This document shows positions 51,940 to 59,629 of a DNA stretch of 64,000 bases, one piece after another; position 1 is the first letter of the stretch; each line of letters opens with the position of its first letter. Under the pieces are notes generated by a model. That model did not search any database and was not told the DNA's origin. It saw nothing but the letters and a program-made list of their open reading frames with translations. The translations under genes and the position numbers were made by a program. Source of the stretch: Gemmatirosa kalamazoonensis. Its GTDB lineage: Bacteria; Gemmatimonadota; Gemmatimonadetes; Gemmatimonadales; Gemmatimonadaceae. The stretch lies in assembly GCF_000522985.1 (NCBI RefSeq), contig NZ_CP007129.1, forward strand, positions 930,001 through 994,000, given 5' to 3'.

Positions 51940-51979
51940 GGGTGTGGGACGAGGTGTGGTGAGGGTCGCCCCACCCGGA

Positions 51980-51995
51980 GGCAACGCCAGGACCA
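51980..51995 (-). promoter_or_regulatory. Sigma-54 promoter of the TetR-MFP-RND operon
   Basis: On the minus strand TGGTCCTGGCGTTGCC: GG (-24) and GC (-12) are ten bases apart as sigma-54 requires. The start site would be near 51969, 30 bp before the TetR GTG. It matches the promoters at 55676 and 58568 at nearly every position. Confidence 0.8.
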
Positions 51996-52095
51996 CGCTC
52001 CACCACCCCCGGCACACGCGAGCGAACGCGTTGCGCCCGCGCGACTTGGCTCGCGTCGACCGCGCCCCGCGGAGGGACGTGCCGCTCTTGTGGGA

Positions 52096-52129
52096 TCGCG
52101 AAATGTCGCAAGATTGGCATATCTCGCAG
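52096..52129. promoter_or_regulatory. Enhancer (UAS) of the efflux operon
   Basis: Proximal site, read toward the promoter: TGCGACATTTCGCGA (52096-52110), 13 of 15 matches to the copies at 55543 and 58425, centred 121.5 bp from the -12 GC. A weaker second site lies at 52115-52129. The sites also stand 36 bp before the enhancer-binding-protein gene, so they may control it too. Confidence 0.75.
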
Positions 52130-52145
52130 TCGAGGAGCGACGCAC

Positions 52146-53747
52146 GTGGAGACGACCGCGCCCGCACGCTCGCAGCTGGAGATGCTGCGTCGCGTGACCC
52201 GCAGCATGGCCACGACGCACGATCTCTCCACGATCCTCCGCTCGATCGCGACCGCGCTCGTGGAGCACGGCGGAGCGTCAGTGGCGCGCGTGTTCCTCTA
52301 TCTCGCCGACGACGAGTGCGAGATCTGCCGCGCCGGCCGCCCCGCCGAAGCCGTGCCCGCCGACGGCGAGCGCGGGCTCCACCTCTCCGCGAGCGCCGGC
52401 ATCCTGGGCACGCGTTACGACGGCCACGATCATTACATCCCGCTGTCGTTCCCGAACCCGCTCTCCACCGTGGCGCGCGAGCGGCTGCCGTTCCTCACGG
52501 GGGATCTCATCGGGGAGGGCCGCACCGACGTGACACCGGAGATCCTCGCGCGCTACCACGAGTACGGCATCGTCTCGGCCGGCGCGTGCCCGCTCGACTT
52601 CCGCGGCGAGCTGCTCGGCGTCATCGGCATGCTGAGCCGGCGGCGGTTCGACCCGAAGGAGTTCGCGCTGCTCGGCATCTTCGCCGACCAGGCCGCGCTC
52701 GCGATCAAGAGCGCGCGCATGTTCACCGAGGTGGAGCGCTACCGCGACCGGCTGCAGGAGGAGAACGCGTATCTCCAGGAGGAGATCCGCGCGGAGCACG
52801 GCTTCGAGCAGATCGTGGGCGAGAGTCCTGCCCTGCGCGCGGTGCTGCGCAAGGTGAAGCAGGTGGCGCCGGTCGAGACCACGGTGCTGCTCACCGGCGA
52901 GACCGGCGTGGGCAAGGAGCTCGTCGCGCGCGCGATCCACGCGCTCAGCCCACGCGCGTCGCGCGCGCTCGTGAAGGTGAACTGCGGCGCGATCAGCCCG
53001 TCGCTCGTCGAGAGCGAGCTGTTCGGCCACGAGCGCGGCGCGTTCACCGGCGCGCTGCAGCGTCGCATCGGCCGGTTCGAGCTGGCCGACAAGGGGACGC
53101 TGTTCCTCGACGAGTGCGGCGAGCTGCCGGCCGACACGCAGGTGAAGCTGCTGCGCGTGCTGCAGGAGGGAGAGCTGGAGCGCGTCGGCGGCACGCGCCC
53201 GATCACCGTGGACGTGCGGCTCATCGCGGCGACGAACCGCGACCTGGAGCACGAGGTCGACGAGAGACGCTTCCGCGCGGATCTCTTCTACCGGCTGAAC
53301 GTCTTCCCCGTCCGCATCCCGCCGCTCCGCGAGCGACGCGCCGACATCGCGCCGCTCGTGCGGTACTTCCTCGCGCACTTCCGACGCCGACTCGGCAAGC
53401 CGCTGCGCGGCGTGACGAAGGAAGGGATGGAGCTGCTGGAGCGCTACGACTGGCCGGGGAACATCCGCGAGCTGCAGAACGTGGTCGAGCGCGCGTGCGT
53501 GCTCGCGACGGGACCGATGGTCGACGTCGCCGACGCGCTGGGCGGCGCGAGCGCCGACGCGTCCACCGTGGAGGCGCCGATCGCGACGCTCGACGAGCAC
53601 GAGCGGCAGCAGATCCGCCGCGCGCTCGCCGCCACGCACGGACGCGTGCACGGACGCGACGGCGCCGCCGCGCTGCTCGGCATCAACGCCAGCACGCTGC
53701 GGTCGCGCATGCAGAAGCACGGCCTGTCCGCGCGAGGCGTCTCATGA
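52146..53747 (+). CDS. Sigma-54 enhancer-binding protein (GAF-AAA+-Fis), first of a tandem pair
   Basis: 533 residues from GTG at 52146, with a GAGGAG ribosome site. N-terminal GAF domain, AAA+ with Walker A GETGVGKE, the sigma-54 contact loop GAFTGA, Walker B FLDECGEL, and a C-terminal Fis helix-turn-helix (AAALLGINASTLRSRMQKHG). The GAF carries DDECEICR, a Cys-x2-Cys pair also found in the next protein, so a metal, Fe-S or redox signal is possible. It is divergent from the efflux operon whose enhancer lies in between. Confidence 0.94.
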   Translation: METTAPARSQLEMLRRVTRSMATTHDLSTILRSIATALVEHGGASVARVFLYLADDECEICRAGRPAEAVPADGERGLHLSASAGILGTRYDGHDHYIPLSFPNPLSTVARERLPFLTGDLIGEGRTDVTPEILARYHEYGIVSAGACPLDFRGELLGVIGMLSRRRFDPKEFALLGIFADQAALAIKSARMFTEVERYRDRLQEENAYLQEEIRAEHGFEQIVGESPALRAVLRKVKQVAPVETTVLLTGETGVGKELVARAIHALSPRASRALVKVNCGAISPSLVESELFGHERGAFTGALQRRIGRFELADKGTLFLDECGELPADTQVKLLRVLQEGELERVGGTRPITVDVRLIAATNRDLEHEVDERRFRADLFYRLNVFPVRIPPLRERRADIAPLVRYFLAHFRRRLGKPLRGVTKEGMELLERYDWPGNIRELQNVVERACVLATGPMVDVADALGGASADASTVEAPIATLDEHERQQIRRALAATHGRVHGRDGAAALLGINASTLRSRMQKHGLSARGVS

Positions 53748-58410: not shown

Positions 58411-58424
58411 GAAGTGAACGCCCT

Positions 58425-58467
58425 CGCGACATCTCGCGACATCTCGCGACGTCGCGGCATGTCGCGA
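58425..58467. promoter_or_regulatory. Enhancer (UAS) of the ABC exporter promoter
   Basis: Three copies of the 15-mer: CGCGACATCTCGCGA at 58425-58439 and 58435-58449 (overlapping) and CGCGGCATGTCGCGA at 58453-58467. Centres are 149.5, 139.5 and 121.5 bp from the -12 GC. Confidence 0.82.
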
Positions 58468-58567
58468 CGCGGGCCGCTACGAGACGGACCGCCACGGTGC
58501 CGCGCCCGGCCCCGCATCTCGCTCGGCCGCAACGCGTTAGCGCCCCATGCGCGGGCCGATCCACGCG

Positions 58568-58583
58568 TGGTCCCGGCGTTGCC
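58568..58583 (+). promoter_or_regulatory. Sigma-54 promoter of the ABC exporter operon
   Basis: TGGTCCCGGCGTTGCC with GG and GC ten bases apart. Transcription would start near 58594, downstream of the ATG at 58589, so translation must start at the ATG at 58634. Confidence 0.82.
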
Positions 58584-58633
58584 CTCCCATGACGGTGCAC
58601 GAACCCACCGACCTCTCCGTCCGGATCACCGCC

Positions 58634-59629
58634 ATGCCCACTCGCACACGCATCGCGCTCGCCGCCGTCGTCCTGTCGACGGTCGGCGCGCTCACCACCT
58701 GGCGCATCGTCGCGGCCGCGCCGCGCGACACGTCCATCGTCGCTTCCGGCACCGTCGAGGCGACGCAGGCCGACCTCGGATTCCAGCTCGCCGGCCGCCT
58801 CGCCGTCGTCGCGCCGCGCGAGGGCGACCACGTCGCCGCGGGCGCCGAGCTGGCGTCCCTCGAGCGCGACGAGCTGCTCGCGCAGCGCGACGCGGCGCGC
58901 GCGCAGGTCGCCGCCGCGCAGGCGCAGCTCCGCGAGCTCACCGCCGGCGCGCGGCGCGAGGAGCTCGCGCACGCGCGTGCCGCGCTCGCCGTCGCCACGG
59001 AGTCGCGCGACGCCGCGAGCCGCGACGTCGAGCGGCTGCGTCCGCTGGCCGAGCAGTCGCTCGTCAGCCGGCAGGCGTTCGACCACCAGCGCACGGCGTT
59101 AGGCATCGCCGAGGGCGAGGTGGACAAGGCCGAGGAGGAGCTGCGACTGCTCGAGAACGGCCCGCGGACCGAGCGCATCGAGGCGCAGCGCGCCGCGCTC
59201 GCGCAGGCCACCGCGACCACCGAGCGCGCCGACGCGCTGCTCGCGCAGACCACGCTCCGCGCACCGTTCGCCGGCACCGTCACGGTGCGGCACCGCGAGC
59301 CCGGCGAGGTCATGTCGCCCGGCCTGCCCGTGCTCACGCTCCGCGACCTCGGCGACCGCTGGGTGCGCATCTACGTGCCCGGCGACGAGGTCGGGCGCCT
59401 GCACGTGGGCCAGCGCGCGGCGATCACCGCCGACGGCTACGCCGACCGCCGCTACGACGGCGTCGTGTCGTACGTCGCGAGCGTGGCCGAGTTTACGCCA
59501 CGCAACGTGCAGACGACGAAGGACCGCGTGCAGCTCGTCTACGAGGTGCGTGTCCGCGTCACCGGCGATCCGCGCATCGACCTGAAGCCCGGCCTCCCCG
59601 CCGACGTGCGGTTCGCCGCGGAGCGGTGA
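58634..59629 (+). CDS. HlyD/YbhG-type membrane-fusion protein of an ABC exporter
   Basis: 331 residues from ATG 58634, chosen because the mapped sigma-54 promoter lies over an earlier in-frame ATG at 58589. A membrane anchor is at the N-terminus (IALAAVVLSTVGALTTWRIV), then split lipoyl domains (GFQLAGRLAVVAPREGDHVA; APFAGTVTVRHREPGEVMSP) and a long coiled coil. It connects the ABC pump to an outer-membrane channel. First gene of a five-gene operon. Confidence 0.9.
   Translation: MPTRTRIALAAVVLSTVGALTTWRIVAAAPRDTSIVASGTVEATQADLGFQLAGRLAVVAPREGDHVAAGAELASLERDELLAQRDAARAQVAAAQAQLRELTAGARREELAHARAALAVATESRDAASRDVERLRPLAEQSLVSRQAFDHQRTALGIAEGEVDKAEEELRLLENGPRTERIEAQRAALAQATATTERADALLAQTTLRAPFAGTVTVRHREPGEVMSPGLPVLTLRDLGDRWVRIYVPGDEVGRLHVGQRAAITADGYADRRYDGVVSYVASVAEFTPRNVQTTKDRVQLVYEVRVRVTGDPRIDLKPGLPADVRFAAER

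Follow-up and report, generated by a model that had tools for sequence, protein, structure and literature searches.

The analysed window comprises 64,000 nucleotides of the Gemmatirosa kalamazoonensis genome (contig NZ_CP007129.1; C3:930001-994000) and harbors two tandem activator genes, here called A and B, flanked by an efflux operon on one side and by a hydrolase gene and an ABC exporter operon on the other. Each of these units is preceded by a -24/-12 element (GG-N10-GC) and by paired copies of the dyad GCGANATNTCGC, as is a fourth operon for a TolC-type channel outside the window. Accordingly named promoters are EFF (efflux), HYD (hydrolase), ABC (exporter), and TOL (channel operon). Judging from the sequence, the operons of both exporters, the channel operon, and the hydrolase gene very probably form one regulon of the sigma-54, activator, and IHF type under A and B. 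Searches covered the whole genome (7,479,215 bases, 4 contigs). Distances were measured from the dyad axis (12-mer) to the midpoint of the -12 GC and are given as proximal/distal, and dyad scores are specified bases matched out of 10.

Activator A (52146..53747, plus strand) revealed a GAF domain, an AAA+ sigma-54 interaction domain, and an HTH_8 domain with the helix NASTLRSRMQKHG. Activator B (53744..55399, plus strand), whose start overlaps the stop of A, is 61% identical to A and carries the helix NPSTLRSRMQKLG. Both contain GAFTGA, and the Pfam domains and helices agree with the preliminary description of this DNA, which had named two tandem GAF/AAA+/Fis activators with GAFTGA and near-identical helices. 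Neither reached an NCBIfam equivalog cut-off, A and B scoring 392 and 413 against 830 for the FhlA type, 387 and 390 against 529 for NifA, and 369 and 367 against 476 for NorR. In the GAF domain, residues C58, C61, H79, and H96 were conserved without exception across A, B, and the related activators of genomes G154 and G140, whereas three more distant GAF activators lack them. A model of the domain (5 sequences; mean predicted local distance difference test score, pLDDT, of 77.8) agreed with the GAF fold, with 418 structure matches at E 0.001 or better; in it, C58-C61 follow the first strand and H79 is part of the subsequent one. The best 50 of the 418 matches named no ligand. By sequence and model, a GAF domain with a CxxC motif and two histidines would be in keeping with a sensor of metals or thiols.

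Altogether, 12 sigma-54 activators were found in this genome, 10 of them with a readable helix-turn-helix (HTH), and only A and B carry this helix. Among the activator loci of the genome, 10/10 dyads likewise occurred only at A and B; single 9/10 matches were detected at four others (L217, L221, L223, and L226). The locus L221 (C2:4236959) encodes an activator with the near helix NPHTLRARM and holds two single 9/10 dyads, and the two together represent a possible sister code.

Exact copies of the promoter sequence TGGTCCNNGCGTTGC were identified at 51981..51995 for EFF (minus strand, TGGTCCTGGCGTTGC), which is placed to drive the TetR-adaptor-RND operon, at 55676..55690 for HYD (plus strand, TGGTCCCCGCGTTGC), at 58568..58582 for ABC (plus strand, TGGTCCCGGCGTTGC), and at C3:994405-994419 for TOL (window coordinate 64405, 405 bp past the window end). 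The three -24/-12 promoters already proposed inside the window were thus borne out, and these four are the only exact matches in the whole genome. Allowing up to two mismatches, the window held 12 matches against a shuffle mean of 3.51, and 0 of 100 shuffles reached 12. With at most one mismatch, 17 matches genome-wide compared to 38 for the reversed control revealed no enrichment, and the sequence is therefore special only in its exact form. RpoN is encoded by a single copy on another contig than the cluster. Two near-promoters were set aside as members due to single weak dyads and no pair, namely 57368-57382 (minus strand, TGGTTCCGACGTTGC), which faces an Asp/Glu racemase gene and has only a single 8/10 dyad upstream, and 7250.

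At EFF, the proximal dyad (52098..52109) lies 122 bp from the GC and just upstream of the start of activator A (52146), and the distal dyad (52116..52127) lies at 140 bp and is weak, with 8/10 specified bases. The same distances of 122 and 140 bp were found at HYD (55562..55573 and 55544..55555) and at ABC (58454..58465 and 58436..58447), the latter with a third dyad at 150 bp (58426..58437). TOL has its pair at 120/138 bp. Seven further pairs were identified in related genomes, at 122/140 bp (G154, exporter promoter), 143/161 bp (G154, TetR promoter), 117/135 bp (G417), 131/149 bp (G100), 110/128 bp (G140, with the variant half-site ACGA replacing GCGA), and 123/141 bp in both G283 and G191, two loci that seem to be orthologs and are best counted once. 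All 11 pairs, four here and seven in relatives, have a step of 18 bp. With TOL at 120/138 bp, a base-exact distance of 122 bp is therefore not common to all four promoters, and the 18-bp step is. Thus, what stays constant within this phylum is the 18-bp step between paired GCGANATNTCGC dyads and not the promoter distance. The preliminary description had placed the dyad exactly 121.5 bp upstream and a second copy at 139.5 bp (140.5 bp and weaker at the efflux promoter), since it measured on an asymmetric 15-mer rather than on the true dyad axis. One distance for the three in-window promoters and a second copy that is weak at EFF were both retained, but the true values are 122 and 140 bp at all three, and the proximal distance shifts to 120 bp at TOL and to 110-143 bp in relatives. 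The dyads that precede the G191 activator belong to a longer array (L211:9066-9141; steps of 18, 18, and 28 bp; scores of 10, 8, 7, and 8 of 10), which runs toward a divergent gene resembling a metallo-beta-lactamase-fold gene of G283.

In a best-pair test over gaps of 12-30 bp, gap 18 won in 8 of 11 slices. The exceptions were the G154 TetR promoter, whose distal dyad is lost in the 165-base slices used, G191 with a tie between gaps 15 and 18, and G140 with its variant half-site. The scores of the best 18-bp pairs at EFF, HYD, ABC, and TOL were reached by 0, 0, 0, and 1 of 300 shuffles, respectively. Taken alone, the dyad at up to two mismatches was not enriched in the window (29 seen versus 24.4 expected; 21 of 100 shuffles reached 29). 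The form CGCGRCATNTCGCG resulted in 12 exact genome matches, five in the cluster and seven elsewhere, and in 259 at up to one mismatch, which is rarer than the reversed control (354). The combined pattern GCGNNATNYCGC N{90,118} TGGN8TTGC gave five genome matches, all at the four promoters, and none for the control, so that the genome search for dyad plus promoter at this spacing, suggested earlier as a check, returned nothing outside the cluster. Across 288 genomes of the order, 101 had at least one match to the combined dyad and promoter pattern, and the highest count elsewhere was three among the matches listed, compared to five here. Rarity belongs to the combination of dyad and promoter and not to either loose motif alone.

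Since sigma-54 promoters often use an IHF site, the spacers were searched for an IHF consensus. IHF-type cores were detected in EFF (CAACGCGTT, 52025..52033, minus strand), HYD (CAATGGCTT, 55638..55646, plus strand), and ABC (CAACGCGTT, 58530..58538, plus strand), each with its center 47.5 bp upstream from the -12 GC. The center of CAAN4TT is also at 47.5 bp in the G154 exporter promoter, at 48.5 bp in G283, and at 46.5 bp in G140. Overall, 6 of 11 promoters had CAAN4TT at 46-49 bp, compared to a mean of 0.01 and a maximum of 1 in 2000 mononucleotide shuffles; it is a rare core, as 84 kb of this replicon contain 7 copies in forward orientation and 22 on the two strands together. The full consensus matched at 13/13 positions in the G154 exporter spacer, 11/13 in TOL, and 10/13 in EFF, HYD, and ABC. 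One IHF-like and one HU-like protein are encoded in the genome, both below curated cut-offs, the IHF-like one on another contig. The cluster had been called self-contained, which is nearly right; its fourth operon is outside the window, and the genes for RpoN and the IHF-like protein reside on another contig.

Relatives were searched in four overlapping genome sets, namely 295 genomes at the level of the class, 179 for the family, 288 for the order, and 395 for the phylum. In these sets, full-length activator relatives of at least 55% identity were found in two other genomes, G140 and G154. In G154, which belongs to another family, the activator (60% identical) is encoded between a divergent TetR gene and an exporter of the same type, consisting of an adaptor, two ATPases, two permeases, and an outer-membrane efflux protein (OEP), with parts 56-79% identical to those of our cluster. 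A match in G426 was not taken as an ortholog, as it begins at residue 141 and its helix differs. A plasmid search matched 387 records, every one below 60% identity.

A search for dyad pairs blind to the proteins resulted in matches in 25 of the 395 phylum genomes versus 4 for the reversed control, at about 29 distinct places. We examined 25 loci, 24 of them outside this genome, and four of the 24 (G417, G283, G191, and G100) adjoin a sigma-54 activator, for which the chance is p ~0.0003 given a rough estimate of 1.35% for random loci. All four of these activators carry the helix [NK]PSTLRSR[ML]. Dyad-like matches in G036 and G166 were dropped, as no activator match lay within 18 kb, and the dyad-pair contigs of G011 (C112) and G187 (C83) also gave no activator match. 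Scanning 88 sources, we found 17 activators fitting an HTH pattern; a dyad of at least 9/10 was adjacent to 7/7 activators with the helix [NK][PA]STLRSR[ML] and to 0/10 with other helices, including G140 (NPTTLRSRM), a count that is partly circular, as 4 of the 7 helix-positive activators had been found via the dyad, and that counts against the link to this extent. Non-circular forms of the link are the 4/4 dyad-found activators with the helix and a control set. As the HTH pattern missed other activators, we therefore recounted on 59 activator frames from 80 control loci, which were the best 80 of 587 relatives in a protein scan with activator A (best segments 37-60% identical; none of these 80 was seen to reach 55% identity over its full length, hence their use as controls). 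Three of the 59 frames had a TLRS[RK] helix, namely L078 (HPNTLRSKM), L083 (PASTLRSRM), and L135 (PPSTLRSKL). A 10/10 dyad within 300 nt was identified at L083 and L135 and at 0 of the remaining 57 frames (L130 has 9/10).

The frame at L083 (Shewanella sp. SG41-4; 1088-2735) looks like a PAS-type activator with a perfect dyad before the gene. Downstream follow two 8/10 dyads, the promoter-like TGGCTTAGTCTTTGC, and a gene that we take to encode a CcoG-type protein. From this sequence, the code may extend to Gammaproteobacteria. The start of the L135 frame reads like a response-regulator receiver. By Pfam, PAS domains were identified in G283, G191 (partial sequence), and G100, the last with membrane-like segments before the PAS domain; the truncated gene of G417 yielded no sensor domain. 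The promoters of G417, G283, and G191 face isochorismatase-family proteins, which in G283 and G191 are followed by an alpha/beta hydrolase. Thus, hydrolases recur as targets, and the efflux set was seen only here and in G154. The earlier proposal of a local sigma-54 regulon served by tandem activators gains support from this comparison, in which the helix and 10/10 dyads are confined to A and B in this genome and the G154 exporter promoter keeps the distances of 122/140 bp.

The efflux operon begins with a gene for a TetR-family regulator with an AefR-like C-terminal domain by Pfam (51256..51939, minus strand, GTG start), followed by a periplasmic adaptor gene (RND_mfp; 50199..51263, minus strand) and by one frame with an RND pump and an outer-membrane efflux protein domain (45664..50202, minus strand; residues 5-1033 and, as best stretch, 1326-1508). 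Both domains of the previously named RND/TolC pair are present, but they share a single frame of 1512 residues, which represents either a fusion or a missed stop; by eye, a signal-peptide-like stretch lies at the joint (residues about 1045-1072). The RND part scored 531 bits against multidrug models and 353 bits against CusA/CzcA, all below cut-offs. Within the RND gene, a repeat of the ggactggggactcggg type runs in frame at 48610-48720 (GTRDSGLGSPQPRVPSSQSRVPSP).

The alpha/beta hydrolase gene (55739..56620, plus strand) appears to be a single-gene unit. The ABC exporter operon, all on the plus strand, starts with an HlyD-type adaptor (58634..59629), whose best model, PRK03598, is presumably that of YbhG. 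It continues with ATPase 1 (59635..60399; 79% identity with its G154 counterpart across 220 residues), ATPase 2 (60389..61348), permease 1 (61345..62457), and permease 2 (62454..63583), whose two halves lie in different frames. The TOL operon encodes OEP (457 residues), a protein of 83 residues that lacks a Pfam match, a DUF3108 protein, and an NDH2-like oxidoreductase (cNMP and CBS domains). Between the exporter and TOL operons lies a gene that looks frame-broken (window 63793-64168; L018:793-1168) and presumably belongs to the GxxExxY family; it adjoins a unit of the GAACCRCAGAGGACRCAGAGG type. Long hairpins of this unit occur at 55396-55480 and 58274-58350 of the window and at L018:1181-1264, just upstream of the dyads in three of the four units (HYD, ABC, and TOL).

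The adaptor, ATPase (two genes), and two ABC-2 permeases in one operon display the YbhGFSR-type layout, with NCBIfam equivalog matches below cut-offs. Based on this gene content, i.e., an RND pump closest to multidrug models, a YbhGFSR-like exporter, and an alpha/beta hydrolase, a response to a toxic compound is plausible. Exporters and TolC channels of these types can also carry endogenous substrates, and a regulon that exports a self-made product or envelope material instead of countering a toxin is conceivable, if on the whole unlikely. The DUF3108 protein and NDH2-like oxidoreductase of the TOL operon would fit such a role, and a central role of sigma-54 in controlling the exterior of bacteria has been argued for (PMC3162934). 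In contrast, the set of a TetR, a multidrug-type RND pump, and a YbhGFSR-like exporter resembles inducible drug efflux as described for ybiH(cecR)-ybhGFSR of E. coli, with its TetR, adaptor, ATPase, and two permeases, which exports tetracycline and ethidium bromide, probably via TolC (PMC7190983). Different from the E. coli system, the cluster has two ATPase genes, a TetR heading a separate RND operon, and sigma-54 promoters with enhancer pairs. We know of no sigma-54 control of ybhGFSR.

The spacing shared by three promoters of one cluster, 122/140 bp, could also be a relic of promoter duplication, with the distance under no functional constraint, which we regard as improbable. With the core masked, the HYD and ABC spacers showed some likeness to that of the G154 exporter (p 0.010 and 0.004), which for HYD hints at common descent, but for ABC is expected anyway of orthologous promoters. 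Compared mutually, the masked EFF, HYD, and ABC spacers had no significant likeness (p 0.76, 0.17, and 0.19) save CAAN4TT at 47.5 bp, and recent copying therefore does not explain their shared spacing; moreover, the geometry is kept in a different family (G154). An old duplication followed by constraint on distance is possible. That the dyads are operators of TetR or another repressor, with another activator serving the sigma-54 promoters, is very improbable: a TetR gene adjoins the dyads here and in G154, but the dyad follows the activator helix and the pairs in G417, G283, G191, and G100 stand beside activators, with no match to this TetR in the stretches examined.

Several findings weigh against a regulon and code as outlined here. 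Most dyad-pair loci outside this genome (20/24) have no activator nearby, and at G283, G191, and G100 the promoter sequence matches only weakly (13/15). No forward CAAN4TT was present at 46-49 bp in TOL, G154 TetR, G417, G191, or G100, and the IHF-like protein scored 89 bits against a curated IHF cut-off of 115. Among the control activators, L078 has no dyad, L135 has a single dyad and no 18-bp pair, and the downstream dyads of L083 are 19 bp apart and 85/104 bp from TGGCTTAGTCTTTGC. Finally, permease 2 of the exporter is split between frames near a GC-repeat run at ~62950; both halves match the G154 permease, and the split represents either a sequencing error or a broken gene.

The sequence itself shows which components are present, where they lie, how they are conserved, and that the dyads go with the helix. 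From this, we infer binding, bending, and activation as follows, along with self-control of A, TetR feedback, and the kind of inducer. Activators A and B would act as one-component sigma-54 enhancer-binding proteins whose GAF domain receives the signal, and they are predicted to bind the paired GCGANATNTCGC dyads. At the CAAN4TT core, which lies between the dyads and the promoter, an IHF-type protein would bend the DNA; the GAFTGA loops would then touch the sigma-54 polymerase at the -24/-12 element and open the promoter. Thereby, four operons would be switched on jointly, namely those for TetR, adaptor, and RND pump with outer-membrane domain, for the alpha/beta hydrolase, for the exporter with adaptor, two ATPases, and two permeases, and for the TolC-type channel. 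Made together with the pump whose operon it heads, TetR probably limits the response, and the dyads just upstream of A may let A regulate itself.

Sigma-54 activators with IHF-type bend sites are an already known kind of system. A and B share an N-terminal sensor, an AAA+ domain with GAFTGA, and a Fis-type HTH with FhlA, NorR, and NifA, whose models were the three best, below cut-off. Different from these activators as we know them are the GCGANATNTCGC dyad, the 18-bp pair, and the GAF domain with CxxC and two histidines; the sites of FhlA and NorR are other sequences. The order of upstream activator sites, an intervening IHF-type site, and a -24/-12 promoter, also found here, has been described as common (PMC7962754); different from such promoters in general, the bend core lies at the identical base in four promoters of two families. 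In a survey of Clostridiales (PMC6615313), most sigma-54 activator sites spread over 100-250 bp, a range which the predicted sites of this study fit. A survey of sigma-54 regulons from 2025 ties sigma-54 to the FtsX-like ABC permease family, called first evidence (PMC12316311); its main text makes no mention of "Gemmatimonad". Comparative motif reconstruction of sigma-54 activators has a precedent in Desulfovibrio (PMC4641369). Among the literature matches listed, none dealt with this dyad motif or with sigma-54 control of efflux in this phylum, and judged against them, the apparent novelties are the dyad code together with the helix that goes with it, the efflux regulon, and a geometry that is exact to the base in four promoters from two families.

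Tentatively, and with slightly more doubt than confidence, we propose a clade of activators with the STLRS helix, which has its center in this phylum and extends as far as Shewanella or beyond, that would use one GCGANATNTCGC code, in 18-bp pairs within the phylum, with swapped sensors (CxxC-GAF, PAS, membrane-PAS, or receiver). In G. kalamazoonensis, this code would have spread over four operons, resulting in an efflux regulon under two paralogous, translationally coupled activators with a geometry kept base-exact via a bend protein. The whole regulon, from activator, enhancer, and bend site to promoter, could be read from sequence alone, and the helix-to-site rule is directly testable. Furthermore, the natural variants of the enhancer-promoter distance, from 110 to 143 bp, bear on how strictly sigma-54 enhancers are placed; the two promoters of the G154 locus differ in dyad distance by 21 bp, about two DNA turns. 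Sigma-54 enhancers are usually viewed as tolerant of distance, and a base-exact geometry held by a bend protein would, if true, run contrary to this view. Multidrug pumps are known mainly for their control by local repressors, and if the efflux role holds true, sigma-54 control would be added to their regulation.

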